From Methyloversatilis sp. (GTDB lineage Bacteria > Pseudomonadota > Gammaproteobacteria > Burkholderiales > Rhodocyclaceae): DNA of 64,000 bases. The stretch covers positions 1 through 64,000 of the forward strand of contig JAGNYW010000013.1 of the NCBI GenBank assembly GCA_017984755.1, written 5' to 3'. The position numbers were made by a program, and so were the translations under genes. Under the pieces are notes generated by a model. The model worked only from the letters and a program-made list of their open reading frames with translations, made no database searches and had not been told where the DNA came from. Shown here in pieces: positions 2,998 through 37,325 of the stretch (the stretch's first letter is position 1; each line of letters opens with the position of its first letter).

Positions 2998-4104
2998 ATG
3001 GCAATCGACGGAAAGACCATCGGGCTCGCGCTTTCAGGCGGCGGGTATCGTGCGACGCTGTTCGGGCTGGGTTCGCTCTGGCGTCTCAACGACGCCGGAC
3101 TGCTGGGCCGGCTCGACCGCATCACCAGCGTGTCGGGCGGTTCCATCCTGATGGGTATCCTTGCTCACCGCTGGCGGCAGCTGCGCTTCAGGGACGGGCG
3201 TGCCGACAACTTCGCCGAAGTGATCGCCGAACCGGTGCAGGCCTTCTGCGGTACCACGATAGACATCGGTGCCGGCCTCAAGGGCCTGCTAACGCCCTTC
3301 AAGACAGCCGGCGATTTTCTGGCCGACCGCTACGCCGATGACCTGTTCGGGGACAGCACGATCAAGGACATGCCGATGGCCGGCGGCGAGGGCCATCCCA
3401 GGTTCATCTTCTACGCGACCAACATGCAGACCGGGCGCAGCTTCCGCTTCCGGCAGGACATGATCGCCGACTACCTGCTCGGCGTTTCGGAGACGACGAA
3501 TGTGACGCTGGCAGTCGCGGTGGCAGCGTCGAGCGCTTTCCCGCCGGTGTTTTCGCCCATCGTGCTGAAGACCGATCCGGGCGCCTGGAGCAAGGGCAGC
3601 GACCTGCCGAACCTGGAAGCGCTGCGCCGGCGCATCGTGCTGGCCGATGGCGGCGTCTATGACAACATGGGTCTGGAATCGCTGATCGACAACGTCGATA
3701 TCGCGCTGGTCAGCGACGCCGGCGCGCCGTTCGAGATCGACGAGACACCGGCCGAGGACGACGTCTTCCAGCTCGGCCGGGTGCGCGACATCCTGATCGA
3801 CCAGACGCGCGCGCTGCGCAAGCGCTGGCTCATTTCGGAGTTCGCGGCAGGCCGCAGGCGGGGCGCCTACTGGGGCATCGGCACGAAGATGTCGGCCTAC
3901 GCGCCGGTCGCCACCATGACCACCGATTCCGCCGCCAGCGACGCACTCGAACACGTGCCGACACGGCTCGCCAGCTTCGAACCCGAGCGTCAGGGCCGCC
4001 TCATCAACTGGGGCTATGCGCTGTGCGACGCATCGCTGCGCACGCGCGCCGGGCTGACGGTGCCGATGTCGACCGCGTGGCCGGACGAAGCCTGGCGGCT
4101 CTGA
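2998..4104 (+). CDS. Patatin-like phospholipase (first gene of CHAT cassette)
   Basis: A 368-residue cytosolic patatin-fold acyl hydrolase, expected to cleave acyl groups from membrane lipids with a Ser-Asp dyad. Seen: the oxyanion-hole loop SGGGYRA at residues 13-19; the nucleophile elbow SVSGGS with Ser46; and the Asp motif ADGGVYDN with Asp217. No signal peptide or membrane segment is seen, so the protein should stay in the cytoplasm and reach the inner membrane from inside. The ATG at 2998 follows GGGAGA. The CHAT protease gene starts 40 bp downstream on the same strand, and an MBL-fold gene follows, suggesting one operon. Patatin lipases are known killing effectors in several phage-defence systems (for example CapV in CBASS), but no nucleotide cyclase is nearby. 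The family call is firm; the defence role is inferred. Confidence 0.9.
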   Translation: MAIDGKTIGLALSGGGYRATLFGLGSLWRLNDAGLLGRLDRITSVSGGSILMGILAHRWRQLRFRDGRADNFAEVIAEPVQAFCGTTIDIGAGLKGLLTPFKTAGDFLADRYADDLFGDSTIKDMPMAGGEGHPRFIFYATNMQTGRSFRFRQDMIADYLLGVSETTNVTLAVAVAASSAFPPVFSPIVLKTDPGAWSKGSDLPNLEALRRRIVLADGGVYDNMGLESLIDNVDIALVSDAGAPFEIDETPAEDDVFQLGRVRDILIDQTRALRKRWLISEFAAGRRRGAYWGIGTKMSAYAPVATMTTDSAASDALEHVPTRLASFEPERQGRLINWGYALCDASLRTRAGLTVPMSTAWPDEAWRL

Positions 4105-4144
4105 TGGCAAAGCATCCGCGACCTTGCGCGTCAGGAGACAGGTC

Positions 4145-7132
4145 ATGAATCGCGAACATCTCGCCAGCTGGAGCCTCGAACTCACCGACGACGAATTTCC
4201 CGAGGCGCTGGCTGCACTCGGCGCGCTGGCCGCATTGGCGCCGGCGAGGCTGTCGTCCGCTTTCGGCGCCGATGGCTGGCAACCCGGACTGCTGGCCGCA
4301 TTGCTCGACGACGCGGTGTCGCCGGACAGCGGCATCGTGCACTGGACCCTGCCTCCGGCCGCGCCGCACGGCGCCCCGCCGCGCCTGCGGATCGTACCGG
4401 CCGGCGCCGCACGGCCGATTGCCGAGCCGGCGCCCGAAGCGGATGTGCTGGTCGAGGTGTGGCGCGAATTCCTGGCCGGCCTGCAGCGCCGCGACCAGGG
4501 CTGGCGCCTGCGGTTGCGTCTGGCGGTGCGCCTGAAGTCGGGTACCGCGGCGGGATCGATGGCGCTCGCCAGCCTGCTGGCGCAACCGCAGGTACGCGCG
4601 GCCGGCATATATATAGATGAAGTCTTCGCGTCCGACGGACGCACCGACTGGTGCTGGCCGTTCACCATCGCGACGCTGCCGGACGATCCGCTGACCGCAC
4701 CGCTGGCCGCGCTGCAACTGGCGTTTCCTCCGGTGTGGCCATTCCGTTTCATCAGCGCCGGGCGTGATCATCCGCGCGTCGAGGTGCTGGTGATCGGCGC
4801 CGCGGCCCAGAACGCACTGACCCGCGTGCTCGAAAGCCGGCTGCGGCTGCGATGCAGTCTGGTCATCGTCGCGGGTCTTGGCAGCGATTCGCCCCGCACC
4901 GCCGAACCGCTGCTGCGCGCGCTGGTGGCAAAGCTCGAAGCCGAAGGCGTGGCGGTGCTCGAAGCCGGTACGTCACCGCAGGATTTCGCGGAGCGGCTGA
5001 AGCACTTCGCCTACGAACTGACACACAACAAGACACTGGACGTGGCGCTCACCGAGGCCTTCCGACCCGGTCTGCTATTGCTGCTCAACCGCGATCTGCT
5101 GTCGGTGAGTCACCTGGACACTTCGGTCGGAAATATGGCGCAGCGCCTGCGCGAACTGCCCCCGGATACCGAAGTAAGACTGTCGGAACGTGCCTTCCGG
5201 CACCTTGGCCTGCCGCCGAAAAACATGCGTCCTGCCCTGCCGCGCATGCGATCGCGCTCGGCACCGCCCGAGCCATCAGGCGCCGCAGCGCCTTCCGACC
5301 TCGCCGATGCCATCGATACTGGCCGCGCACAGTACCGATTCGACAGCGAGGCGATGGAGGCATCGGCGGTGTCCGAACTGAACCGCAGCCTGCACGAGGA
5401 AGAATCGGCGGCGGAAAGGCAGACGGCGGTGCCGCGCTTCATCCACCAGCGGAGCCTGCGCAGGCAGGCCGGTGAATTCATCGAGGAAACGTCGGGTTAC
5501 GTGGTCGGGCAGCCGATCATGCTGTTCATTCACATCGGCCCGAAACGCGAAGGTTCCATCGCCTCGAAAACCGCCTTCCCGGAGGAAAAGCTCCCGAAAA
5601 ACCGGGCTTCGCACCGGCTGCAGGTGATGTTTCACGAACCTCAACAGTTCGATCAGCCGTTGCTGGATGAAATGCTGCTGCCCCGCAAGGGCGCAAGCAG
5701 CGCTGCGAAATTCGTGTTCACACCGAAGTTCGCGGGCCCGTTCGAAGGTCGCATTTCGGTGGTGCATCGCGGCCGCGTGCTGCAGACCGTCATGCTGCGC
5801 ACTCAGGTTTCGGCGCAGCCGGGTGACAAGACGCCCGACGGGGGAGCGCCCGGCATTTCGCTGGACGACGAAACACAGGTGCGCCACGACTGGTCCGATC
5901 TGGGGCGGCGCCGGCAGTTCGATCTGGCCATCGTGACCAATCACACCGGCACCGGTGCATCGACGCTGACCGGCCTCGCCGGCGAAAAGGCATGGGCGAC
6001 CGACCTCGAAGGCATCCGGGAGCCGCTGCTCGACATCAATGCCGAACTGTCGAAGGTCGCATACAGCACGGACGACTACGGCGACGGACTCGATCAGGGC
6101 GAAAACCCGGCGCTGCTGGTCGAACTGGCGCGCATCGGCGCCGATCTGTATTCGCAGCTCTATGTAGACCAGTTCGGTCGGCTCGCCACCGAAGGCTTCG
6201 ACATCGGACGCGACAGCGTGACCCACATCCAGATCGTCAGTGCGCGCGCCGATGCCGTGCTGCCGCTCGAATTCCTGTACGACTTCGAACCGCCCGACCC
6301 CGGCGCCAAAGTGTGCCCGCAGCATCGCGAGGCATTGGAAAAGGGGCGCTGCCCGGCCCGCTGCGCCCGTACCGATGCGCCGCGCGAGCACGTCTGCCCG
6401 ATGGGTTTCTGGGGGCTGAAGAAGGTGATCGAGCGGCACATCTTCGACCCGCAGGCGGCTGCAGCCGAAAGGGCTGCCGGCGCGGATGGCGCAGAAGTCG
6501 TGGTGCGTGCGGTCGAAGCGCTGGACGGACGCGACCGGCTGGACCTGAGCGCAGGGGCGCTGGTGGCGCACAGCGCCGAGGTTTCACCGGACGCGGTCAG
6601 CGCACTGGTCGGCATGCTCGGCGAACGTCTCGGCAGTCCGGTGCCGGTGGTGAAGGACTGGGCGGACTGGCTGCTCACGGTGCGCAACAAGCGGCCGGCG
6701 CTGCTGGTCGCGTTCCCGCACAACGAGGGGCGCAAGCGCAACATCCAGCTCGAGATCGGCGGCAAGAAGCTGTTCACGCTGCGCCTGCCGACCGATTACG
6801 TGCGCCCGGCAGACGGCCCGCCGCCGCTGGTGTTCCTGCTCGGCTGCGATGTCGCAGGCACGGCGGAGGAGTTTTCCGACCACATCCGCAACTTCCGTCA
6901 GGCGGGTGCCGCAGTGGTGGTGTCGACCATCGCCACGGTGTTCGGCACGCACGCCGTGCGCGTCGGTGAAGCCATCGTGAACGGCCTGCTGAAGACCGGC
7001 ACACCGGGCGAGCCGGCCGCGGATACGCGCATCGGCGAAGTGATGCGCGACGCCCGTCGCGCCGCGCTGCTGGACAGCGTGCCGATGGCGCTGTGCGTGG
7101 TGGCCTTCGGCGATGCAGACTGGCGGATCTGA
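4145..7132 (+). CDS. CHAT-domain (caspase-like) cysteine protease, large multidomain
   Basis: A 995-residue protein. The C-terminal ~200 residues have the CHAT peptidase pattern: His859 in LLVAFPHNEG and Cys901 in LVFLLGCDVAGT, then FRQAGAAVVVSTIATVFG. Just upstream is a cysteine-rich insert with C-x11-C-x3-C-x10-C spacing followed by GFWGLKKVIERH, probably a zinc-binding knuckle. Residues 1-350 form an unrecognised region that includes FAYELTHNKTLDVAL. Residues ~460-560 look beta-rich (VGQPIMLFIHIG, FTPKFAGPFEGRISVVHRG), like an Ig-type or adaptor fold. ATG 4145 is chosen because AGGAGA lies 7 bases upstream; an in-frame TTG at 4124 has no such site. CHAT proteases are known in Craspase and gasdermin-type systems, where they cut partner proteins. 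Here the partner could be the patatin lipase or the MBL protein (inferred). Confidence 0.8.
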   Translation: MNREHLASWSLELTDDEFPEALAALGALAALAPARLSSAFGADGWQPGLLAALLDDAVSPDSGIVHWTLPPAAPHGAPPRLRIVPAGAARPIAEPAPEADVLVEVWREFLAGLQRRDQGWRLRLRLAVRLKSGTAAGSMALASLLAQPQVRAAGIYIDEVFASDGRTDWCWPFTIATLPDDPLTAPLAALQLAFPPVWPFRFISAGRDHPRVEVLVIGAAAQNALTRVLESRLRLRCSLVIVAGLGSDSPRTAEPLLRALVAKLEAEGVAVLEAGTSPQDFAERLKHFAYELTHNKTLDVALTEAFRPGLLLLLNRDLLSVSHLDTSVGNMAQRLRELPPDTEVRLSERAFRHLGLPPKNMRPALPRMRSRSAPPEPSGAAAPSDLADAIDTGRAQYRFDSEAMEASAVSELNRSLHEEESAAERQTAVPRFIHQRSLRRQAGEFIEETSGYVVGQPIMLFIHIGPKREGSIASKTAFPEEKLPKNRASHRLQVMFHEPQQFDQPLLDEMLLPRKGASSAAKFVFTPKFAGPFEGRISVVHRGRVLQTVMLRTQVSAQPGDKTPDGGAPGISLDDETQVRHDWSDLGRRRQFDLAIVTNHTGTGASTLTGLAGEKAWATDLEGIREPLLDINAELSKVAYSTDDYGDGLDQGENPALLVELARIGADLYSQLYVDQFGRLATEGFDIGRDSVTHIQIVSARADAVLPLEFLYDFEPPDPGAKVCPQHREALEKGRCPARCARTDAPREHVCPMGFWGLKKVIERHIFDPQAAAAERAAGADGAEVVVRAVEALDGRDRLDLSAGALVAHSAEVSPDAVSALVGMLGERLGSPVPVVKDWADWLLTVRNKRPALLVAFPHNEGRKRNIQLEIGGKKLFTLRLPTDYVRPADGPPPLVFLLGCDVAGTAEEFSDHIRNFRQAGAAVVVSTIATVFGTHAVRVGEAIVNGLLKTGTPGEPAADTRIGEVMRDARRAALLDSVPMALCVVAFGDADWRI

Positions 7133-7153
7133 ACAATGAACGCGGGAGCCGCG

Positions 7154-8263
7154 ATGACCGACCCCTTCATGCGCATCGAAATGCTGCCGGCGCTGCATGG
7201 CGACTGTCTGCTGGTCGAGTACGGCGACGCACGGCGCACGCGCCGGGTGCTGATCGACGGCGGACCGATCGGTGCCTTCGGTGCGCTGCAGGCCCGCTTC
7301 GATGCGCTGCCGCCGGGCAACCGGCGCTTCGAACTGGTGGTGCTCAGCCACGTCGACACCGACCACATCGACGGTCTGGTGAAGCTGTTCGCGCAGCCGG
7401 TACCGTGGCCCTTCGTGGTCAGGGACGTGTGGTTCAACGGCTGGCGCCATCTGGAAAGGACACACGGACTGCTGGGCGGCAAGCAGGGAGAATATTTCAG
7501 CGCACTGCTGGCGCGCCGGCTCGATCCGGGCAGCTGGAACGGTGCCTTCGGTGGCCAGCCCGTGGTGGTGCGCGATGACGCGCCGCTGCCGGAGCACACG
7601 CTGGCCGGCGGCATGAAACTCACGCTGCTGTCACCCACCGTACCCAAGCTGGAAAAGATGCGTGACGCGTGGCGCAAGGACATCGGCGACGCGATCGACC
7701 CCGGTGATCTTGACGCTGCGTGGGACCTGCTGGCCAGGCAGAAGCGCTACCTGCCGGGTCAGGGCCTGCTGGGCAGCACACCGGCGCTCGACGCGCTGCT
7801 GGAAAAGCAGTCGCGGCCGGACAACGCCGCCGCCAACGGCGCAAGCATCGCCTTTCTGGCCGAGTTCGGCGACAAGCGCTGCCTGTTCCTCGCCGATGCC
7901 CATCCGGATGCGGTGTGCGCGTCGCTCGAACGGCTGCTGCAGGCGCGCGGGCTCGAGCGGCTGCGGGTTGACGCGGTCAAGGTGTCGCACCACGGCAGCA
8001 AGGGCAACACGACCGACGCGCTGATGGCGCTGATCGACTGTCCGCGCTTCCTGTTCAGCACCAACGGCGCGCAGTTCGGTCACCCGGATGCCGAAGCGGT
8101 GCAGCGCGTGATCGCCCGATCGGTGCGGCCGCACCCCACGCTCTATTTCAACTACCTGACCGACCGCAACCGCGAATGGCAGAACCCGGCGTTGCAGCAA
8201 ACGCTCGATTACAGTGCGGAGTTCAACACCGGAAAGGACCGACCGCTGGTCGTCACGCTTTGA
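7154..8263 (+). CDS. ComEC-like metallo-beta-lactamase-fold hydrolase (third gene of CHAT cassette)
   Basis: A 369-residue soluble protein of the MBL superfamily, closest in style to the C-terminal domain of ComEC/Rec2. Seen: a metal-binding SHVDTDHIDG with His66, Asp68, Asp70 and His71; FLADAHPD around residue 250; and VSHHGSKGN with His279-His280. There are no transmembrane segments, so it is a free-standing hydrolase. Known members act on nucleic acids or phosphodiesters, but the substrate is not predictable here. ATG 7154 follows GGGAG by 6 bases; an in-frame ATG at 7136, three bases after the CHAT stop, is an alternative. Either way it is tightly coupled to the CHAT gene. The last base lies 19 bp from the convergent antiporter gene, with no clear terminator. 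Confidence 0.85.
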   Translation: MTDPFMRIEMLPALHGDCLLVEYGDARRTRRVLIDGGPIGAFGALQARFDALPPGNRRFELVVLSHVDTDHIDGLVKLFAQPVPWPFVVRDVWFNGWRHLERTHGLLGGKQGEYFSALLARRLDPGSWNGAFGGQPVVVRDDAPLPEHTLAGGMKLTLLSPTVPKLEKMRDAWRKDIGDAIDPGDLDAAWDLLARQKRYLPGQGLLGSTPALDALLEKQSRPDNAAANGASIAFLAEFGDKRCLFLADAHPDAVCASLERLLQARGLERLRVDAVKVSHHGSKGNTTDALMALIDCPRFLFSTNGAQFGHPDAEAVQRVIARSVRPHPTLYFNYLTDRNREWQNPALQQTLDYSAEFNTGKDRPLVVTL

Positions 8264-8282: not shown

Positions 8283-10025
8283 TCAGTGGTGCGGGGCGGC
8301 GGATACCTTCAGGCCGATGCCGGTGACGCGCCCGCCGGCATCGATGCTGCGCACCGAAAGCTGGATCGCGCCGATGCGCACCCGGTCGCCGACTACCGCG
8401 CGCCGGCCGAGGCTGGCCTGCATCAGCGACTGCAGATCGAGTCCGGCCTGTTCCGGCGGCAGGTCGAAACCGTAGTTCAGCGCCAGATCACCCGCCAGGC
8501 ACGCCGGATCGACCACGAATTCGCCGAAGAATCCGGCATGCGCACTCAGTTCGCCCGACACCGGGCTGAACGAGCGCGCGATCCCTTCGGCCAGTGCGTC
8601 GGACGCGGCGAACCAGACTGCATCGCCGGCGCACAGGCGCGAGTCCGGCTGCAGACGCAGCACCTGCTGGTCACGGGTGACTGCGACACAGCGCACCTCG
8701 CCGGGCTCGCCGAATCCGGCGGCAACGTCGTCCGGATGACTGCCTTCTGCCGCCGACCCGGAGCCGACCCGGTATTCCAGCAACTCCAGTGCGGCGTCTC
8801 CGCCGACCCACACGTCCTGACGATCGACCGGCTCGTCGCGCGGCGGCACCTCGACACCCAGCACGCGCGCCGCACCGGGCACGGTGGCGCCCTGCACCAG
8901 CAGCGACAGCAGCACCACGGCGAAGGCCACATCGAACAGCAGCAGCGAATCCGGCACGCCCATCATCACCGGCACGATGGCCAGCACGATGGGCACCGCA
9001 CCGCGCAGCCCGACCCACGAAATGTAGGCCACCTCGCGCGGCCTGAAGCGGAAGGGCCACAGGCCGGTCGCGACCGCGAACGGCCGCGCGACCAGCATCA
9101 GGAACACCGCCATGGCAAGCGCAGCCCAGGCATGGTCGAGCAGGTGCGACGGCGTCACCAGCAGGCCGAGCACCACGAACATGCCGGCCTGCGCCAGCCA
9201 CGCGAGGCCGTCCATCACGCGCAGCACGTGTTCGGTGGCATGACTGCGGCGGTTGCCGACCATCAGGCCGGCGATGTAGACGGCAAGAAATCCGCTGCCG
9301 TTGATCAGATTGGTGGCCGCGAACACGAGCAAGCCGCCGGACAGGATGAGCAGCGCATACAGACCTTCGGCCAGCTTCAGGCGGCGCAGCAGGCGCGCCA
9401 GCACCCAGCCCCCGGCCACGCCGGTCAACGCGCCCAGACCGAGCTGGCTGACCAGCATGAACACAAAGCGCAGCGGGCTGCTGTCTGCGGGTACGAGCAG
9501 CATTTCGACCATCATGGTGACCAGCAGGATGGCCATCGGGTCGTTGGCGCCCGACTCGATTTCCAGCGTCGCCTGCACCCGCTGGTTGAGCCGCACGCCG
9601 CTGTTGCGCAGCAGTGCAAACACGGCCGCGGCGTCGGTCGATCCGACGATGGCCGCCAGCAGCATGCCGAGGCGCCAGTCGACATCGAGCAGCCAGGTGG
9701 CGAACAGGCCGAGCGGAATGACGGTGGCGATGACACCCCAGCTGGCCAGCACCGCCGCCGGCCGCAGCGCAACGCGGAAGGTTTCGACGCGGGTGCGCAG
9801 GCCGCCGTCGAGCAGGATGATGGCCAGCGCCAGCTGACCGACCAGCGTGGCGGTCGTGAAATCGCTGAACAGGATGCCGCCCGGCCCGTCTTCGCCGGCC
9901 AGCATGCCGACCACCAGAAAAAGCAGCAGCAGCGGCAGGCCGAGGCGGGACGATACGGTGCTGCCGAGCACGCTGATGAACAGCAGAAGACCGGCGAGCA
10001 GCAGGTAGGTGTTGATCGCAGTCAT
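8283..10025 (-). CDS. nhaP2: K+/H+ antiporter, NhaP2/CvrA type
   Basis: A 580-residue inner-membrane CPA1 antiporter, close to the 578 residues of E. coli NhaP2. Seen: about 12 hydrophobic segments in the first ~390 residues, with the signatures GSTDAAAVF and LEIESGANDPMA that carry the ion-binding Asp/Asn residues. A cytosolic C-terminal tail follows with a TrkA-C-like segment (GEVRCVAVTRDQQVLRL) and a CorC/HlyC-like end. It exchanges K+ (or Na+) for H+ and protects against K+ excess or alkaline stress. ATG 10025 (MTAINTYLLLAG) is preferred over an upstream TTG because NhaP2 proteins start at this point. The gene is convergent with the CHAT cassette and probably not part of it. Confidence 0.9.
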   Translation of the reverse strand: MTAINTYLLLAGLLLFISVLGSTVSSRLGLPLLLLFLVVGMLAGEDGPGGILFSDFTTATLVGQLALAIILLDGGLRTRVETFRVALRPAAVLASWGVIATVIPLGLFATWLLDVDWRLGMLLAAIVGSTDAAAVFALLRNSGVRLNQRVQATLEIESGANDPMAILLVTMMVEMLLVPADSSPLRFVFMLVSQLGLGALTGVAGGWVLARLLRRLKLAEGLYALLILSGGLLVFAATNLINGSGFLAVYIAGLMVGNRRSHATEHVLRVMDGLAWLAQAGMFVVLGLLVTPSHLLDHAWAALAMAVFLMLVARPFAVATGLWPFRFRPREVAYISWVGLRGAVPIVLAIVPVMMGVPDSLLLFDVAFAVVLLSLLVQGATVPGAARVLGVEVPPRDEPVDRQDVWVGGDAALELLEYRVGSGSAAEGSHPDDVAAGFGEPGEVRCVAVTRDQQVLRLQPDSRLCAGDAVWFAASDALAEGIARSFSPVSGELSAHAGFFGEFVVDPACLAGDLALNYGFDLPPEQAGLDLQSLMQASLGRRAVVGDRVRIGAIQLSVRSIDAGGRVTGIGLKVSAAPHH

Positions 10026-10376
10026 GCGGAAGAAATCCGGGGTTCGGCGTTTAGGGTCGGGCGGTCGCGGGCAGCGCATCCACACACACCGCAAGACGTC
10101 ACCGGATGAACAGATCGGGCAATCGATCGAATGTTTCCGCGCAGCGCACTGCTTCCGTTTTTTTTACCACGAAACACTGCGCCCGGCGGTACGGCGGCGC
10201 GCCTTTTCCGGGCTTTGCCCCTGTCGGCGGATGGATCCGTTTTTTATAAGCTTGCCGTAAGGTAAGGGTCCTAGTATCCGGCACGCAGCAGTAAAGGGCG
10301 CCCGGACCGATGTCGGAAATCCTCTGGAAACCGGCTCCGGATCGGGTAGTTCACAAAACATAGGAGGAGAAAATCC
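10026..10376. other. 351-bp divergent regulatory region
   Basis: This lies upstream of both the antiporter gene (leftward) and the DUF4212 gene (rightward). It contains a T8 run at about 10160 and a short hairpin CGGA-TGGA-TCCG at 10228-10239 followed by T7. That hairpin is too weak to call a terminator with confidence. No confident promoter hexamers or known riboswitch are seen. Confidence 0.4.
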
Positions 10377-10634
10377 ATGGAAGACAGCAACAGCCAAGGC
10401 TACTGGAAAGCCACGCTGGGTCTGCTGACCAAGATCATGATCGTCTGGTTCGTGGTCTCGTTCGGAGCGGGCATCCTGTTCGCTGACGCACTCAACGGCA
10501 TCAAGCTCGGCGGTTACCCGCTCGGTTTCTGGTTCGCCCATCAGGGTTCCATCTACGTCTTCATCGCGCTGATTTTCTATTACGCGAAGAAGATGGGCGA
10601 TATCGACCGTCAGTTCGACGTACACGAGGATTGA
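10377..10634 (+). CDS. DUF4212 small membrane protein, symporter partner subunit
   Basis: An 85-residue protein with two hydrophobic helices (about residues 17-38 and 48-69) and a charged C-terminus (KKMGDIDRQFDVHED). This is the DUF4212 family, almost always found directly upstream of VC_2705-type sodium:solute symporters and thought to be a small subunit of the carrier. A very strong ribosome site (AGGAGGAG) precedes ATG 10377. The stop overlaps the symporter start by one base (TGATG), so translation is coupled. It probably sits in the inner membrane with the transporter. The role as an accessory subunit comes from genomic association in the family; its mechanism is unknown. Confidence 0.92.
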   Translation: MEDSNSQGYWKATLGLLTKIMIVWFVVSFGAGILFADALNGIKLGGYPLGFWFAHQGSIYVFIALIFYYAKKMGDIDRQFDVHED

Positions 10635-32060: not shown

Positions 32061-32673
32061 GTCTGTTTCGAGCCGGAATGCCAACTTTCAATTGTCCCTC
32101 AGCAACATCCTTCGTGACCACTGCGCCAGCGCCGATGATCGCGTCATCCCCGATCTGCAGCCCGGGCAGGATGATCGCACCGCTCCCGACCAGCACGCGC
32201 CGCCCCACGATGACGCCGCCACCCAGCACCGATCGTGGCGCGATGTGACTCCAGGCCCCCACCTGACAGTCGTGATCGACGATTGCGCCATGATTCACGA
32301 TCACGCCGTCACCCACTCGTGCGCCCGGGGCAATGACGGCCTGCGCTGCGACGAAAACGCCGTCTCCCAGTGTCGCATGCGGCGAGATCGTGGCCATGGG
32401 GTGCACGATCCGCAGCAATCGACCTCCCTGCTCACACATCAGCCTTGCCAGGCGGCACCGGACTTCGTTGGACCCGATGGCTACGTGCACCGCCCCTTCG
32501 AACACTCCGGACGGCAATGCGGGACTGACGACCGGCCTGCCCAGAAGCGGGCGCGATGTCGCGGAATCGTCACGCACGCACACGTCGATGTCCGGGCGCG
32601 CCTGCAGCAGCGCATCGAGAACCACGCAGCCGTGCCCGCCAGCCCCGATCAGCAGACAGGTATCAGTAGGCAT
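32053..32673 (-). CDS. NeuD/PglD-type sugar O- or N-acetyltransferase
   Basis: A 206-residue acetyltransferase. The N-terminal Rossmann half starts LLIGAGGHGCVVLDAL. The C-terminal half is a left-handed beta-helix of hexapeptide repeats (HPMATISPHATLGDGV, VNHGAIVDHDCQVG with the general-base His, APRSVLGGGVIVG). Known relatives N-acetylate UDP-4-amino-sugars (PglD, LegH) or O-acetylate sialic acid (NeuD). Directly after an aminotransferase and before a hydrolysing epimerase, N-acetylation of the C4 amine is the likelier job. It overlaps NeuC by 11 bp. Confidence 0.93.
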   Translation of the reverse strand: MPTDTCLLIGAGGHGCVVLDALLQARPDIDVCVRDDSATSRPLLGRPVVSPALPSGVFEGAVHVAIGSNEVRCRLARLMCEQGGRLLRIVHPMATISPHATLGDGVFVAAQAVIAPGARVGDGVIVNHGAIVDHDCQVGAWSHIAPRSVLGGGVIVGRRVLVGSGAIILPGLQIGDDAIIGAGAVVTKDVAEGQLKVGIPARNRHE

Positions 32674-33793
32674 TCAGTTTTGTCATCAAATTGGCGTCGA
32701 GCGGCAGCGTGGCAAGCCATTCAACGATACGCCGACTCGTCTGCCCGTCACCATAGACGTTTTCGCACCACTGCCGGCCGCGCTTCAGTGCAGCGTCGAG
32801 CGCCTCGTCGAATGCCGGTCGGCCCGGCTCGCTGTCGATGACATTGCCGCTTTGCTCGCGACCATGCTGACGGCCGCCGACGTTGACCACCGGCAGTCCG
32901 AAACTCGCCGCCTCAATAATGCCGCTGCTCGAATTGCCGACGAGTACATCAACGGATGCCAGACACGTCAGATATTCATCGCGCGGCAGGTGCGCCAGCA
33001 CTGCGAAACCCGGTGCCGACGAACGCGTCTCTATTTCGGCCCGCACAGCGGCGCCGCCTGCATCACTGTTCGGGAGAAGACAGATCGTCTGGCAGCTCCG
33101 GGCGTGCAGGGCATCAAGCAGCGCACGCGTCTGCAGTCCTGCCGTGTCGGCTTCCTGCAAAACAGGATGGAATACCATCAGCGCGACCGGGCGGGACGGA
33201 TCGAATCCGAAGCGACGGCACAGCGCGGAGCGGTCGGCTGCAACCTCATCAGTCAGGCCGTCCAGGCCCGGCGCGCCCGAGACGAACACATGCTCCGGTC
33301 GCTCACCCATGCGTATCAGTCGCTGCCGCGCCCCTTCGGTACTGGTGAAATGATAGTGCGACATCTTCGAAATCGCGTGGCGGACCGGCTCATCGACAGT
33401 GCCCGACAATTCGCCTCCGTGGATGTGCACCGTCGGGATGTTCAGGTGAAGGGCGGCCAGCGCGGCCGCCAGCATCTCCCCACGATCACCCAGCACCAGC
33501 ACAAGGTCCGGTCGATACGCATCGAACAGGCGGGTCATGCCATCCAGCTGGACGGCCAGTGCCAGTGCCATCGTTGCGCCAGACGAACCGTCGAGAACAA
33601 CCGGCACTCGACCGATGATCTTCAGGCCGCAGCCCTCGATCTCCCGCACCGTTTCACCGTAGGCTGACAACAGGTGCATGCCGGTGACGCACACGCCGAG
33701 ATCGAGCCGGGAATCACGGTTAATCGCCAGCAGCGTGCGCTGCATCAACCCGAAATCAGCCCGGGTACCGGTGACATACACGATGCGTCTCAC
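32663..33793 (-). CDS. neuC: Hydrolysing UDP-sugar 2-epimerase (NeuC/LegG type)
   Basis: A 376-residue GT-B-fold enzyme that removes UDP while inverting C2, giving a free ManNAc-type sugar. Seen: the start YVTGTRADFGLM, LVLGDRGEMLAA, HIHGGELSGTVDEPVRHAISK, and NSSSGIIEAASFG near the C-terminus, all typical of NeuC. The start is GTG at 33793, overlapping the NeuB stop (GTGA). With the dehydratase, aminotransferase and acetyltransferase beside it, the likely substrate is UDP-2,4-diacetamido-trideoxyhexose (LegG role) rather than plain UDP-GlcNAc. That choice is inference from context. Confidence 0.94.
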   Translation of the reverse strand: MRRIVYVTGTRADFGLMQRTLLAINRDSRLDLGVCVTGMHLLSAYGETVREIEGCGLKIIGRVPVVLDGSSGATMALALAVQLDGMTRLFDAYRPDLVLVLGDRGEMLAAALAALHLNIPTVHIHGGELSGTVDEPVRHAISKMSHYHFTSTEGARQRLIRMGERPEHVFVSGAPGLDGLTDEVAADRSALCRRFGFDPSRPVALMVFHPVLQEADTAGLQTRALLDALHARSCQTICLLPNSDAGGAAVRAEIETRSSAPGFAVLAHLPRDEYLTCLASVDVLVGNSSSGIIEAASFGLPVVNVGGRQHGREQSGNVIDSEPGRPAFDEALDAALKRGRQWCENVYGDGQTSRRIVEWLATLPLDANLMTKLNAY

Positions 33794-34854
33794 GGCGCAA
33801 GATCTTCCCGGTGCAGAGTGTCGCCCTCATGCATCGGCCGGATGACGATGCGTCCGACAATGCTGTCCAGCTCCGCAGGCGGAATGCCGTTGCCGGGCCG
33901 CATCAGGGTCAGGTCTTCCACGCACAGCCGCTGGCCGGCCCGGACGTCAACCGCGAGCGTCACGCTGCGTCGAGCCGCCACCCTGACTTCGAGTTCCGGC
34001 CCGGTAGGCGCCTTGAAGCCGTCACCCAGTATCAGTTCGGTATCGCGGATGGCGCCGACCATCCGGGCAAGCTCGGCAGGTTCGAGCGACGCAGCATGGT
34101 CGGGGCCCGGCATCGAACGGTCGAGGGTGAAGTGCTTTTCGAACACTCCGGCACCGAGTGCTCGCGCCAGCGGTGCGACGAAGATGCCCGCAGTATGATC
34201 GGAATAGCCGACCGGCAAGCCGAAACGATCCTGCAGCGTGCGCATCGCCAACAGGTTCACGTCGGTCAGCGGCGTCGGGTAGTTCGAAGTGCAATGCAGC
34301 AGCGTCAGTACTTCGGCCAGCGGGGCATCCTGGCCAGCGACCTGCCGGGCGTCACGCACCCAGTCAACCGCCTCCGCAACTTCATCGAGGGTGGCCATGC
34401 CGGTCGATACGATGAGCGGCAAGCCTTTGGACGCAAGAAAACGGACAAAAGGCGCATTCGTCAGTTCGCCGGACGGCAGCTTTAGCCGGCGTATGCCGAG
34501 TGACACCAGGAAATCGGTCGATGCCTCGTCAAACCCGGTCGACAGGAACTCGATGCCTTGCTCCGCACAGTGACGGCCGATGCGCGCATGCGCTTCCTCG
34601 TCCAGTTCGAGCGCCTTGAGCATCGAATACTGGTCGCCTTCGCCGGTCTGTGTTTCCTGGTAGGCAGCCTTCTTCGCGGCCCGTGTCACCAGACGATCCG
34701 CCTTGAAGGTCTGGAACTTGACGATGTCGGCGCCGGCCGCCACCGCGGCATCCACCAGTCTCAGCGCGTTGTCTTCCGAACCGTTGTGATTGACGCCGGC
34801 CTCGGCGATGATCAGGCAGCGCTGCATGACCGTCGATGCCCGGCTGCTCACCAT
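33790..34854 (-). CDS. neuB: Nonulosonate synthase (NeuB/LegI type)
   Basis: A 354-residue TIM-barrel enzyme that condenses a ManNAc-type sugar with PEP to form a nine-carbon keto-acid. Seen: IIAEAGVNHNG near the start, VKFQTFKADRLV, KLPSGELTNAPF, LLHCTSNYPTP and GYSDHTAGIF, and a C-terminal SAF antifreeze-like domain from about residue 290 (RRSVTLAVDVRAGQRLCVEDL). ATG 34854 follows GGAGG by 9 bases and overlaps the SDR stop; ATG 34827 gives the more usual family start but lacks a ribosome site. The product is likely legionaminic acid or a relative. Confidence 0.96.
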   Translation of the reverse strand: MVSSRASTVMQRCLIIAEAGVNHNGSEDNALRLVDAAVAAGADIVKFQTFKADRLVTRAAKKAAYQETQTGEGDQYSMLKALELDEEAHARIGRHCAEQGIEFLSTGFDEASTDFLVSLGIRRLKLPSGELTNAPFVRFLASKGLPLIVSTGMATLDEVAEAVDWVRDARQVAGQDAPLAEVLTLLHCTSNYPTPLTDVNLLAMRTLQDRFGLPVGYSDHTAGIFVAPLARALGAGVFEKHFTLDRSMPGPDHAASLEPAELARMVGAIRDTELILGDGFKAPTGPELEVRVAARRSVTLAVDVRAGQRLCVEDLTLMRPGNGIPPAELDSIVGRIVIRPMHEGDTLHREDLAP

Positions 34855-35672
34855 ATCGACAACCCTCCGTCGACCAGCAGGTTCTGGCCGGTCATGTAGG
34901 CTGATGCCGGTGAGGCGAGAAACAGCGCTGCGTCGGCGATCTCCTGTGCCTCGGCCATGCGACCCATCGGCACGCGAGCCCGATATCTGTCATGGAACAC
35001 ACCATTCTGCCCGCTCGATACGCCACCCGGCGAAATGGCGTTCACGCGGATGCCGTCGGCCGCCCACAGTGCAGCCAGATAGCGCGTCAGCGAAATGACG
35101 GCGCCCTTTGATGCTGCGTAGACCGGTGGCGTGTTGATCTGCTGACCGAGATAGAACGAGCCTTCGTAGATGCGCATGTCGGGCGCCATGGCGCCGTAGA
35201 TGGACGCCGTCTGCACGATGGCACCCCCACCCTGTTCGCGCATGCGCGCAGCGCATTCCCGCGCCATGACGAACAGGCCGTCCACATTGACCGCCATGAC
35301 TTCGTGCCAGGTGTCCAGCGAGTACGTGTCGACGGGGTCGAAGAAGCGTGCGAGGTCGCCGGTCTTGCTTGCCGCGTTGTTGAACAATACGTCGATGCGC
35401 GAACTCCAGCCGACGATGTCGCCGACCGTGCGGGTGATGGCGCCGGCATCCGCCAGATCGCAGGCAAAGGCGCGGACGCAGGTCGTATCGCCCTGTTCTC
35501 TGCCGATCTCCCCGGCCAGCTTTTCAAGGCCGGCTGCGTCGATGTCCACCAGCGCGACCCGGGCACCGAATCCGACGAGACGCCGGGCGATCACGTTGCC
35601 GATGATGCCGGCCGCGCCAGTCACGACGGCAACCTTGTCCTCGAGACGCAAGTAGGATGTTCGAGTGTTCAT
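34848..35672 (-). CDS. SDR oxidoreductase of the nonulosonate block (PtmA-like position)
   Basis: A 274-residue classical short-chain dehydrogenase: a cofactor loop TGAAGIIGNVIA near the N-terminus, LFNNAASK, a catalytic Ser in TASIYGAM, and Tyr-x3-Lys in YAASKGAV. The C-terminal LVDGGLSIW is typical. SDRs of this kind (PtmA) accompany legionaminic-acid and flagellin-glycan genes in Campylobacter, where the exact reaction is not settled. AGGA precedes ATG 35672. It overlaps neuB by 7 bp. The family is sure; the substrate is unknown. Confidence 0.9.
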   Translation of the reverse strand: MNTRTSYLRLEDKVAVVTGAAGIIGNVIARRLVGFGARVALVDIDAAGLEKLAGEIGREQGDTTCVRAFACDLADAGAITRTVGDIVGWSSRIDVLFNNAASKTGDLARFFDPVDTYSLDTWHEVMAVNVDGLFVMARECAARMREQGGGAIVQTASIYGAMAPDMRIYEGSFYLGQQINTPPVYAASKGAVISLTRYLAALWAADGIRVNAISPGGVSSGQNGVFHDRYRARVPMGRMAEAQEIADAALFLASPASAYMTGQNLLVDGGLSIW

Positions 35673-35694
35673 TCAGCGGGTCCTGTAGATTCGT

Positions 35695-36618
35695 TCAAGC
35701 AATGTGCGGGTCTGCATCGACACGGCAACCGTCTGCAAGGGACTGATGAATTGCATCCACCCAGCGCACGGTCGACAGTGCGGTGGCTGCATCGCAGGAC
35801 CGCGGGTCGGCGCCCGACATCGCGGCCAGATGCTGCTGCCGCATCATCGCGTCCCGCTCGACCACGACCTGTTGCTCATCGCCATTGATCGCCAGCGTGC
35901 CTTTGACAAGATCGGCCTTCAGGGTGCCGAACGGGCCATTGACCAGAATCCATCGCGACACTGATCGATCGAGGTAATTCATGTGCACGGTCACCAGCTC
36001 GCAGCGCTCGCAGCGGGCAAGCACCGTCACGGCATCTTCGCTGTCGATGTCCAGCGTGCTCAGCTTGCCGCCTGCAGCGATGGTGCTGCACCAGCGCCCC
36101 GCGAGCAGCTGAGCGTAATCGAGTTCGTGGCTGAGGTCCCGAACCACACCGCCGTCCTCGCGTCTTGCCGAGTAACTTTGCCGGTAATCACGGTCGGGAC
36201 GCCAGTCAGGAAGATACTGACCGACATAGGCCGTGAAGGTCCACAGCGCCTGTCCATCTAGTTGTTCCATCAAGCGGGTGATCAACGGGTGGAATCGCAG
36301 GGTGTAGCCGACGAAAACCGGCCCGGACGGCAGCACCCGCGCTTCGCCGGATCCGGCGAGCATGGGTTTCTCAACCAGGGTGGTCCCGGAAAAGCCGTGT
36401 CTGGCCAGCACAGCGAGCGTCGGGCCATGCAGGCGGGTATCGTTGGCGATCACCACATAACCCGGTGCAAACTCATCGAGTGCGCTCCGGAGATCGCGAA
36501 AAGCGGGCAGGGACGTGTCGGTTGCGGACGTGACCACCGCAACTTCGAAACCGATCTCGCCGAGCACCCGGGCGTGACGCCGGCCAATCGATCCGAAGCC
36601 GATCACCAGACACTTCAT
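35695..36618 (-). CDS. Gfo/Idh/MocA-type oxidoreductase
   Basis: A 307-residue NAD(P)-dependent enzyme. It has an N-terminal Rossmann fold (LVIGFGSIGRRHARVLGE) and the EKP motif in TLVEKPML that marks this family. Its C-terminal beta-sheet domain holds EDGGVVRDLSHELDYAQLL, where the His lies. It probably oxidises or reduces a sugar of the pathway, as PtmF-like proteins may do. It overlaps neuA by 4 bp (ATGA). The substrate is unknown. Confidence 0.9.
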   Translation of the reverse strand: MKCLVIGFGSIGRRHARVLGEIGFEVAVVTSATDTSLPAFRDLRSALDEFAPGYVVIANDTRLHGPTLAVLARHGFSGTTLVEKPMLAGSGEARVLPSGPVFVGYTLRFHPLITRLMEQLDGQALWTFTAYVGQYLPDWRPDRDYRQSYSARREDGGVVRDLSHELDYAQLLAGRWCSTIAAGGKLSTLDIDSEDAVTVLARCERCELVTVHMNYLDRSVSRWILVNGPFGTLKADLVKGTLAINGDEQQVVVERDAMMRQQHLAAMSGADPRSCDAATALSTVRWVDAIHQSLADGCRVDADPHIA

Positions 36619-37325
36619 GACGCAGCGGCCCGCCGTTCCAGCAGCAGACTGACGATCTCGAAATCGAGTTCGCTGTCGATGTCGATGGAGCGCTCCTCAG
36701 CCATGACATACAGCTGGGTGTCCGGGTGGAACAGCCCCTCGCGCTCGAACAGGGCATCGCGTGTCCAGGCGTATATCGATGCGTTCATGTCGAAGCAGGC
36801 CGGCGCATCCTGCCGGCGCAGGATGGGCACTTCAGGCCGCTTGGCGAGATCGATCCGTCCATCGGGCATGCGTTCGAGCAGGTTGAAATAGGGCGAGCGT
36901 CGCGCCGGAGCAGCCGTCACTACGTTTCCGGCGCCGCTGGCGCGGAGCAGCGCGGCGCATGCGCGGATGTCCGACGGCAGGCGAAGCGGCGATGTGCAGT
37001 CGAGATCGATGACCACGTCCGCACGGAAACCCAGCTGCGCTTCGGCCTCCGACACGCAATGCCGGATCACTGGCAGCTTGCCGGCGACATCGGTGGCCAG
37101 TTCTGCCGGCCGGTGGATCAGCACCGTTGCACCGGCTCTTGCCGCCAGATCAAGATAGGTTTCACTGTCGCTGCTGAAGGCGATGGCATCGAACAGGCCG
37201 CTCTCGATGGCCTGTCCGACCGTGTGGGCAAGCAGCGGCTTGCCCGCCACGAGGCGCGCATTCTTGTTGGGCACACCCTTGGAACCGCCGCGGGCGCAGA
37301 TCGTGCAGAGCATTCGTTCAGCCAT
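36615..37325 (-). CDS. neuA: CMP-nonulosonate cytidylyltransferase (NeuA/LegF type)
   Basis: A 236-residue enzyme that activates a nonulosonic acid with CTP to CMP-sugar. Seen: the nucleotide motif CARGGSKGVPNKN near the start, AFSSDSETYLDLA, IDLDCTSPLRLPSDI, FDMNASIYAWTRD, and a C-terminal DIDSELDFEI. The length fits NeuA/LegF/PseF. It is the last activation step and would hand CMP-Leg (or similar) to a glycosyltransferase encoded elsewhere in the array. The ribosome site is weak. A 129-bp gap upstream holds nothing recognisable. Confidence 0.95.
   Translation of the reverse strand: MAERMLCTICARGGSKGVPNKNARLVAGKPLLAHTVGQAIESGLFDAIAFSSDSETYLDLAARAGATVLIHRPAELATDVAGKLPVIRHCVSEAEAQLGFRADVVIDLDCTSPLRLPSDIRACAALLRASGAGNVVTAAPARRSPYFNLLERMPDGRIDLAKRPEVPILRRQDAPACFDMNASIYAWTRDALFEREGLFHPDTQLYVMAEERSIDIDSELDFEIVSLLLERRAAAS

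Follow-up and report, generated by a model that had tools for sequence, protein, structure and literature searches.

In this study, we analysed a window of 64,000 nucleotides from Methyloversatilis sp. (positions 1 to 64,000 of contig JAGNYW010000013.1, from a host genome of 3.27 Mb in 96 contigs), in which three closely packed genes encode a patatin-like phospholipase, a CHAT/separase-type cysteine protease and a protein of the metallo-beta-lactamase (MBL) fold. These genes probably make up a Canu-like abortive-infection cassette, in which the CHAT protease would cut the MBL protein, a putative pro-nuclease, and the phospholipase would act as second effector; it is best read as a variant, carrying a CHAT protease and a phospholipase, of Canu, a family described only recently. 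The analysis yielded a conserved cassette, intact catalytic residues, the folds, two loops with matched motifs and exchange of both lipase and protease types, and a role in defence is proposed because of the family membership, the spread and this exchange of parts. The open reading frames (ORFs) are packed on the same strand, as an earlier note on this DNA had described (lengths in amino acids, aa):

2998..4104, + strand: patatin-like phospholipase, 368 aa (Pfam PF01734, Patatin, 4.4e-16; nucleophile Ser46, Asp217)
4145..7132, + strand: cysteine protease of the CHAT/separase type, 995 aa including a long N-terminal part (His859/Cys901; AlphaFold2 model, Foldseek)
7136..8263, + strand: MBL-fold protein of 375 aa, a putative pro-nuclease like LmuA, Avs1a and CanC (PADLOC, NCBIfam, ComEC structure match)

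The CHAT gene starts 40 bp past the patatin stop codon (the protein has 995 aa with the ATG start and 1002 aa with an upstream TTG), and the ATG of the MBL gene lies 3 bp past the CHAT stop, well inside the 25 bp given by the earlier note. Genome contigs were scanned for the CHAT protein with a five-sequence alignment, which yielded 68 loci (L numbers below), and synteny was counted over these and the window, excluding L009-L012 as duplicates of L015, L037, L035 and L060. Of the loci with room, 65/67 have an MBL gene directly after the CHAT gene, at a median gap of 12 bp, and 38/62 have a patatin gene before it, at a median gap of 13 bp; these counts are not independent events because near relatives such as Accumulibacter and Thauera are among the 68 loci. 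The three genes thus form a conserved cassette, and the co-occurrence across genomes on which the earlier note had made its case depend was borne out. Chance neighbourhood or an artefact of reading has hardly any probability left, being refuted by the synteny counts and by the conservation of the catalytic residues. Since the MBL gene is kept far more regularly than the patatin gene, the protease-MBL pair is the core of the cassette.

Canu loci, published in Science in November 2025 (PMC12799240), combine a caspase with an MBL pro-nuclease. According to that source, CanC acquires nuclease activity through the CanAB complex (KaeCanABC), glycines are conserved in both of its insertions, and defence against T4 is ablated when either of the predicted cut sites is mutated; in HamM (Hachiman) and Avs1a, MBL pro-nucleases are likewise opened by trypsin-like proteases that cut two loops. 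The MBL protein of the window is assigned by its sequence to this defence pro-nuclease family (LmuA, Avs1a, CanC). Its PADLOC matches are LmuA (8.7e-69), Avs1a (7.7e-48) and RTasMBL (4.2e-39); the NCBIfam Avs1a model matches at 4.2e-67, yet with 226.6 bits against a cut-off of 420 bits, and Pfam Lactamase_B at 2.6e-5, barely past its cut-off. The best match among solved structures is the ComEC MBL domain 9ic4 (Foldseek 2e-11; hidden Markov model, HMM, 1.6e-12), and the catalytic residues His72, Asp74, Asp76, His77, Asp254, His285, His286 and His316 are all present in 64/64 aligned MBL proteins (window counted), in agreement with the ComEC-like hydrolase with an HxDxDH motif recognised earlier.

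About 80 residues beyond ComEC lie between the two conserved halves of the MBL protein (profile positions 80-219 against chain positions 81-140), and within them the structure model has two internal regions of low confidence by the predicted local distance difference test (pLDDT), which we take as candidate gating loops:

7454..7492, + strand: predicted gating loop 1, residues 107-119, with L113-G114 (pLDDT <50 at 109-113)
7733..7819, + strand: predicted gating loop 2, residues 200-228, with L212-G213 (pLDDT <50 at 209-215, 217-219 and 224-233)

These loops may cover the active site, as suggested by the comparison with ComEC and by the relatives described in PMC12799240. By alignment column, L113 and G114 are each found in 63/64 proteins, and a Leu-Gly (LG) pair occurs within the loop 1 segment in 62/64 and within the loop 2 segment in 63/64 MBL proteins, where 500 composition shuffles gave means of 23.8 and 24.6, respectively, and a maximum of 37. 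The residues flanking LG are also alike inside one and the same protein, for instance DDILGA and DDILGD in L060, HGLLGG and QGLLGS in the window; over the 62/64 rows used, 77 flank matches were counted between the loops against 45.3 expected, with a maximum of 63 in 5000 permutations, and thinning to 15 rows below 60% identity left 21 matches against 11.4 (P 0.001). In eight aligned MBL proteins (the window, six of caspase-type and one of CHAT-type plasmid loci), the loop 1 glycine is present in 8/8, and loop 2 of the plasmid alignment has Leu-, Phe- or Tyr-Gly in 4/6 caspase-type rows, L167 and L168 being those that have none. Activation of the MBL protein by the CHAT protease is the best reading, given the Leu-Gly motif in both loops and the precedent in PMC12799240.

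The CHAT protein itself gave one chance-level row in Pfam and zero matches in NCBIfam or PADLOC. Its AlphaFold2 model (alignment of 61, mean pLDDT 88.9) matches separase 5fby (4e-8), TPR-CHAT/Csx29 7zoq (2e-7) and SAVED-CHAT 8tl0 (2.4e-4) in Foldseek, and the CHAT assignment of the earlier note is right because the model matches separase and TPR-CHAT/Csx29; the catalytic residues named there are conserved as well, with His859 in 61/61 and Cys901 in 60/61 aligned proteins (window counted). The parts of the protein are:

4145..5434, + strand: N-terminal alpha/beta region, about residues 1-430, a candidate sensor (secondary structure of the model; no family match)
5438..5812, + strand: beta-sandwich, putatively immunoglobulin-like (Ig-like), about residues 432-556 (strands of the model)
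5858..7129, + strand: CHAT protease domain, about residues 572-995 (model, Foldseek, catalytic residues)
6314..6415, + strand: cysteine cluster C724/C736/C740/C751 followed by CPMGFWG, within the CHAT domain (alignment)

The beta-sandwich gave weak Foldseek rows to ASF1A structures 7lny (3.1e-3) and 1tey (5.7e-3), and we call it Ig-like on the assumption that ASF1A is Ig-like. In the cysteine cluster, C724, C740 and C751 are found in 61/61 rows and C736 in 50/61; together with CPMGFWG, the cluster is possibly a zinc knuckle.

As for the lipase, Ser46 and Asp217 are present in 37/37 aligned patatin rows (window counted), so that, with the Pfam match, the patatin lipase reported earlier is upheld. 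The lipase slot can also be filled by an unrelated enzyme: a Tle1-like phospholipase (PF09994, GFSRG motif, 2.8e-72 to 1.7e-81) is encoded upstream of the CHAT gene in L073 and L080, and after the MBL gene in L074. These three loci fall at separate places in the CHAT tree, where the placement of the long-branched L080 is unsure. An HMM built from these three proteins found no further Tle1 among the loci; in L076, a hydrolase with a GHSLG motif had no Pfam match. A second, weaker patatin match of about 400 aa lies on the opposite strand just past the cassette in L035 (13799-15013, 1e-23) and L037 (15116-16318, 3e-23). The Accumulibacter-type loci L062, L064, L065, L066, L068 and L069 have no adjoining patatin or Tle1 and carry a gene of 200-203 aa after the MBL gene, which in L062, the sole one checked, encodes a YitT membrane protein (PF02588).

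Relatives of the MBL and patatin proteins are also found with other proteases. An MBL match was present in 62 plasmid records, of which 16 neighbourhoods were read, with incomplete gene tables, and a caspase-annotated gene precedes the MBL gene in 7/16 (L165-L169, L171, L175). A lipase confirmed by Pfam adjoins the caspase-MBL pair in 2/7, namely a divergent patatin in L165 and an in-line DUF2235/Tle1 in L166; in L171, a divergent gene is annotated as alpha/beta hydrolase, and in the incomplete gene tables of L167, L168, L169 and L175, zero lipases are annotated beside the pair. By annotation alone, L177 (1041-6643) has patatin, hypothetical, S8 peptidase and MBL genes in line, and the Methylorubrum plasmid locus L176 (40-6715) has an S8 peptidase and genes in the MBL position directly behind a cyclase, E2 and TIR set resembling cyclic-oligonucleotide-based antiphage signalling (CBASS).

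Patatin relatives away from CHAT were examined at 14 loci (L141-L143, L146, L154-L163), chosen as three at E <1e-80 and four weaker ones (G272, G060, G220, G279) from one search, and all seven non-window ones from a second search; relatives similar in strength to those four but outside the 14 include G330, G104, G144, G012, G301 and G181. An MBL-family match lies beside the patatin, or at most one gene away, in 8/14, among them L163, where it lies on both sides. Four of these loci are zincin-MBL-patatin operons with HETTH zincins of one family that had no Pfam match (L143 9077-13372, L161 7843-11917, L159 4334-8586, L141 9098-13726), which we consider a sister type of locus where a metalloprotease replaces CHAT, and in L142 (2067-8450) and L155 (7614-12263) patatin and MBL stand with a subtilase (S8). 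L154 stops at the contig end, and L163 is a different locus with E2/ThiF/JAB. In L159, a second MBL match (9316-10446, E 3e-103) adjoins the operon on the opposite strand. The MBL family further occurs apart from this CHAT protein in L144, where the MBL gene is divergent to a small CHAT protein; in L145 (8431-13741), an MBL gene is followed by a single chain with CHAT, ATPase and subtilase domains. The genes of L143 and L145 were read from ORF lists, as the codon-usage caller gave antisense shadows at high GC.

That the lipase slot survives replacement by an unrelated lipase, and that patatin relatives accompany three protease types (CHAT, zincin, subtilase), would also be expected of a defence system with the lipase as main effector, in which CHAT activates the patatin or sets it free, while the role of the MBL protein is regulatory, e.g. 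signal removal. This is nevertheless unlikely, since the core is the protease-MBL pair, the patatin has no conserved cut-like site comparable to the MBL loops (LG at residues 161-162 in just 26/37) and, according to PMC12799240, related MBL enzymes are demonstrated DNases. The other LG-like places in the patatin read as general family motifs. Thus, where the earlier note had cast the CHAT protease as a switch for either the lipase or the MBL enzyme, the first option lacks a comparably conserved site in the patatin and the second is retained. The Tle1-like lipases raise another alternative, that of an interbacterial weapon rather than phage defence, in that PF09994 is named after effectors of the type VI secretion system. 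We regard such a module as very improbable, because no secretion-system gene is annotated in the 16 plasmid neighbourhoods (L170 being unannotated and the gene tables incomplete) and gated MBL proteins with partner proteases are known from intracellular immunity (PMC12799240).

As in Canu, a cysteine protease, putatively caspase-clan-like, stands directly upstream of an MBL protein with two glycine-bearing disordered loops, and the MBL protein of the window shares 34-40% identity with those encoded in caspase-type plasmid operons. The differences are that the protease fold is CHAT/separase-like in the cassette and caspase in Canu, that none of the three genes occupies the place of CanB, that the putatively Ig-like part precedes the protease domain in the cassette, whereas the Ig-like part of KaeCanA trails it, that the loop motif is LG in the cassette and FG, YG or LG in caspase-type rows, and that a phospholipase is linked in most cassette loci with room. 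We have not filed the cassette as plain Canu because it has no CanB and its protease no detectable sequence similarity to the caspases tested; CanB is perhaps not family-defining, as canu loci are described as variable in organisation (PMC12799240).

The same MBL family is used by Avs1 (Avs1a), Lamassu-hydrolase (PADLOC LmuA) and HamM of nuclease-protease Hachiman. Their partner protease, which cuts the gating loops in Avs1a and HamM (PMC12799240), is a trypsin-like enzyme in fusion with another defence protein, whereas that of the cassette is a CHAT protein, and the cassette proteins have no trypsin match in Pfam. Craspase (TPR-CHAT/Csx29) and SAVED-CHAT share the CHAT protease fold; a family search of the three cassette proteins gave no CRISPR or SAVED match, and unlike Craspase, the cassette has no adjoining gRAMP CRISPR effector gene and its likely substrate is the co-encoded MBL protein. 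In CBASS, patatin phospholipases serve as the killing enzyme; the cassette differs in having no cyclase gene, and the switch for its patatin would be proteolytic or other. A term search of the main text of PMC12799240 (supplements outside the search) found no mention of CHAT protease, lipase or patatin, and the three-gene set was not found in the literature searched, nor in passages of PMC7159879, PMC8195603 and PMC12419801. The earlier view of an undescribed system therefore holds within that literature for the lipase, the CHAT protease and the three-gene form, but not for the pairing of a protease with an MBL pro-nuclease, which has been published with a caspase as Canu.

Several observations weigh against our reading. 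Profile comparison of the CHAT protein gave no match with five caspase-annotated proteins in the CanA position (hhalign probability 0.1%) or with five in the CanB position (1.2%). Within the cassette family, Cys901 is replaced by Arg in L053, the MBL gene is missing from L072 and L078, and the upstream patatin is missing from 24/62 loci with room, of which 20/24 have no recognised adjoining lipase (the other four being the three Tle1 loci and L076). With regard to the loops, the correlation of acidic flanks was gone in the 15 rows below 60% identity (P 0.14), and the composition shuffles, permutations and thinning control relatedness only partly. Away from CHAT, no MBL match lies near the patatin in 6/14 loci (L146, L156, L157, L158, L160, L162), so such patatins also exist outside cassettes. 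Finally, a PADLOC scan at 1e-15 of 110/234 eligible neighbours from 54 loci, a few of them possible effector genes (L073, L076), showed no defence enrichment: 19 families were matched, as against three for 46 other window proteins. Three of the 19 have three members each and are RtcR-type regulators, which we take to be general sigma-54 activators, and the other 16, including methylases, BrxH, DpdF, PsyrT, mads and ZorB, have a single member. The location in defence islands suggested by the earlier note is thus not supported.

This lack of enrichment, and the ordinary chromosome genes that flank the window cassette (a monooxygenase and a K+/H+ antiporter gene by family search, symporter-like and methionine-synthase-like genes by reading of the sequences), would fit a housekeeping or lipid-turnover operon that holds a protease and a hydrolase incidentally. 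Such an operon is quite improbable in view of the distribution: the CHAT protein was found in just 5/399 genomes of the window's order (own genome counted), each with a strong adjoining MBL match, its tree spans nine phyla, including Methanoperedens, and relatives are carried on plasmids; moreover, the MBL protein is nearest to defence families, and lipase and protease types are exchanged. In the same 399 genomes, searches at 1e-3 matched patatin in 81 and MBL in 70, many of which read as general patatins and ComEC-like proteins. Zero relatives of the CHAT protein were found in viral contigs, and phage records gave two weak MBL matches.

Other features of these loci can be noted briefly. SulP (L009/L015) and ThiC (L017) genes before CHAT were taken as unrelated neighbours, and in Bacteroidales-type loci small, apparently membrane-spanning proteins precede CHAT (L042 2031-2414, L043 9495-9950, L056 8964-9467), with no Pfam match above cut-off. 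In the window, a promoter-like site at 2909-2937 (one against 0.4 expected) and five terminator-like sites (4.0 expected) are not beyond chance, and positions 32666-37313 hold look-alikes of nonulosonic acid and surface polysaccharide synthesis genes, judged by their sequence starts.

For the Canu-like cassette proposed here, we envisage three steps. Infection would be sensed by the CHAT protein through its N-terminal region and its putatively Ig-like part, probably with oligomerisation. The protease would then cut the MBL protein at Leu-Gly in both disordered loops, as the loop anatomy and published relatives suggest, and the cut protein would act as a DNase, destroying the DNA of phage and host alike. 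The phospholipase, to judge from its conserved linkage and its replacement, would attack membranes as second effector. More tentatively, and with the odds rather against it, the loci might belong to a superfamily of suicide systems with two effectors. In these, a single protease triggered by infection (CHAT/separase, caspase, subtilase or zincin) would free a DNase as well as a phospholipase of the patatin or Tle1-like type, the lipase itself being a pro-enzyme under protease control.

If the proposed reading is true, the theme of protease-gated nucleases reaches to CHAT/separase-type proteases, and a second, membrane-directed effector, found with several protease types, is added to it. From the matched motif in the two loops, the sites of cleavage can be predicted, so that two purified proteins would suffice to test the mechanism. 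Separase-like proteases that serve as death switches in bacteria would also be relevant to the question of how caspase-type cell death arose.

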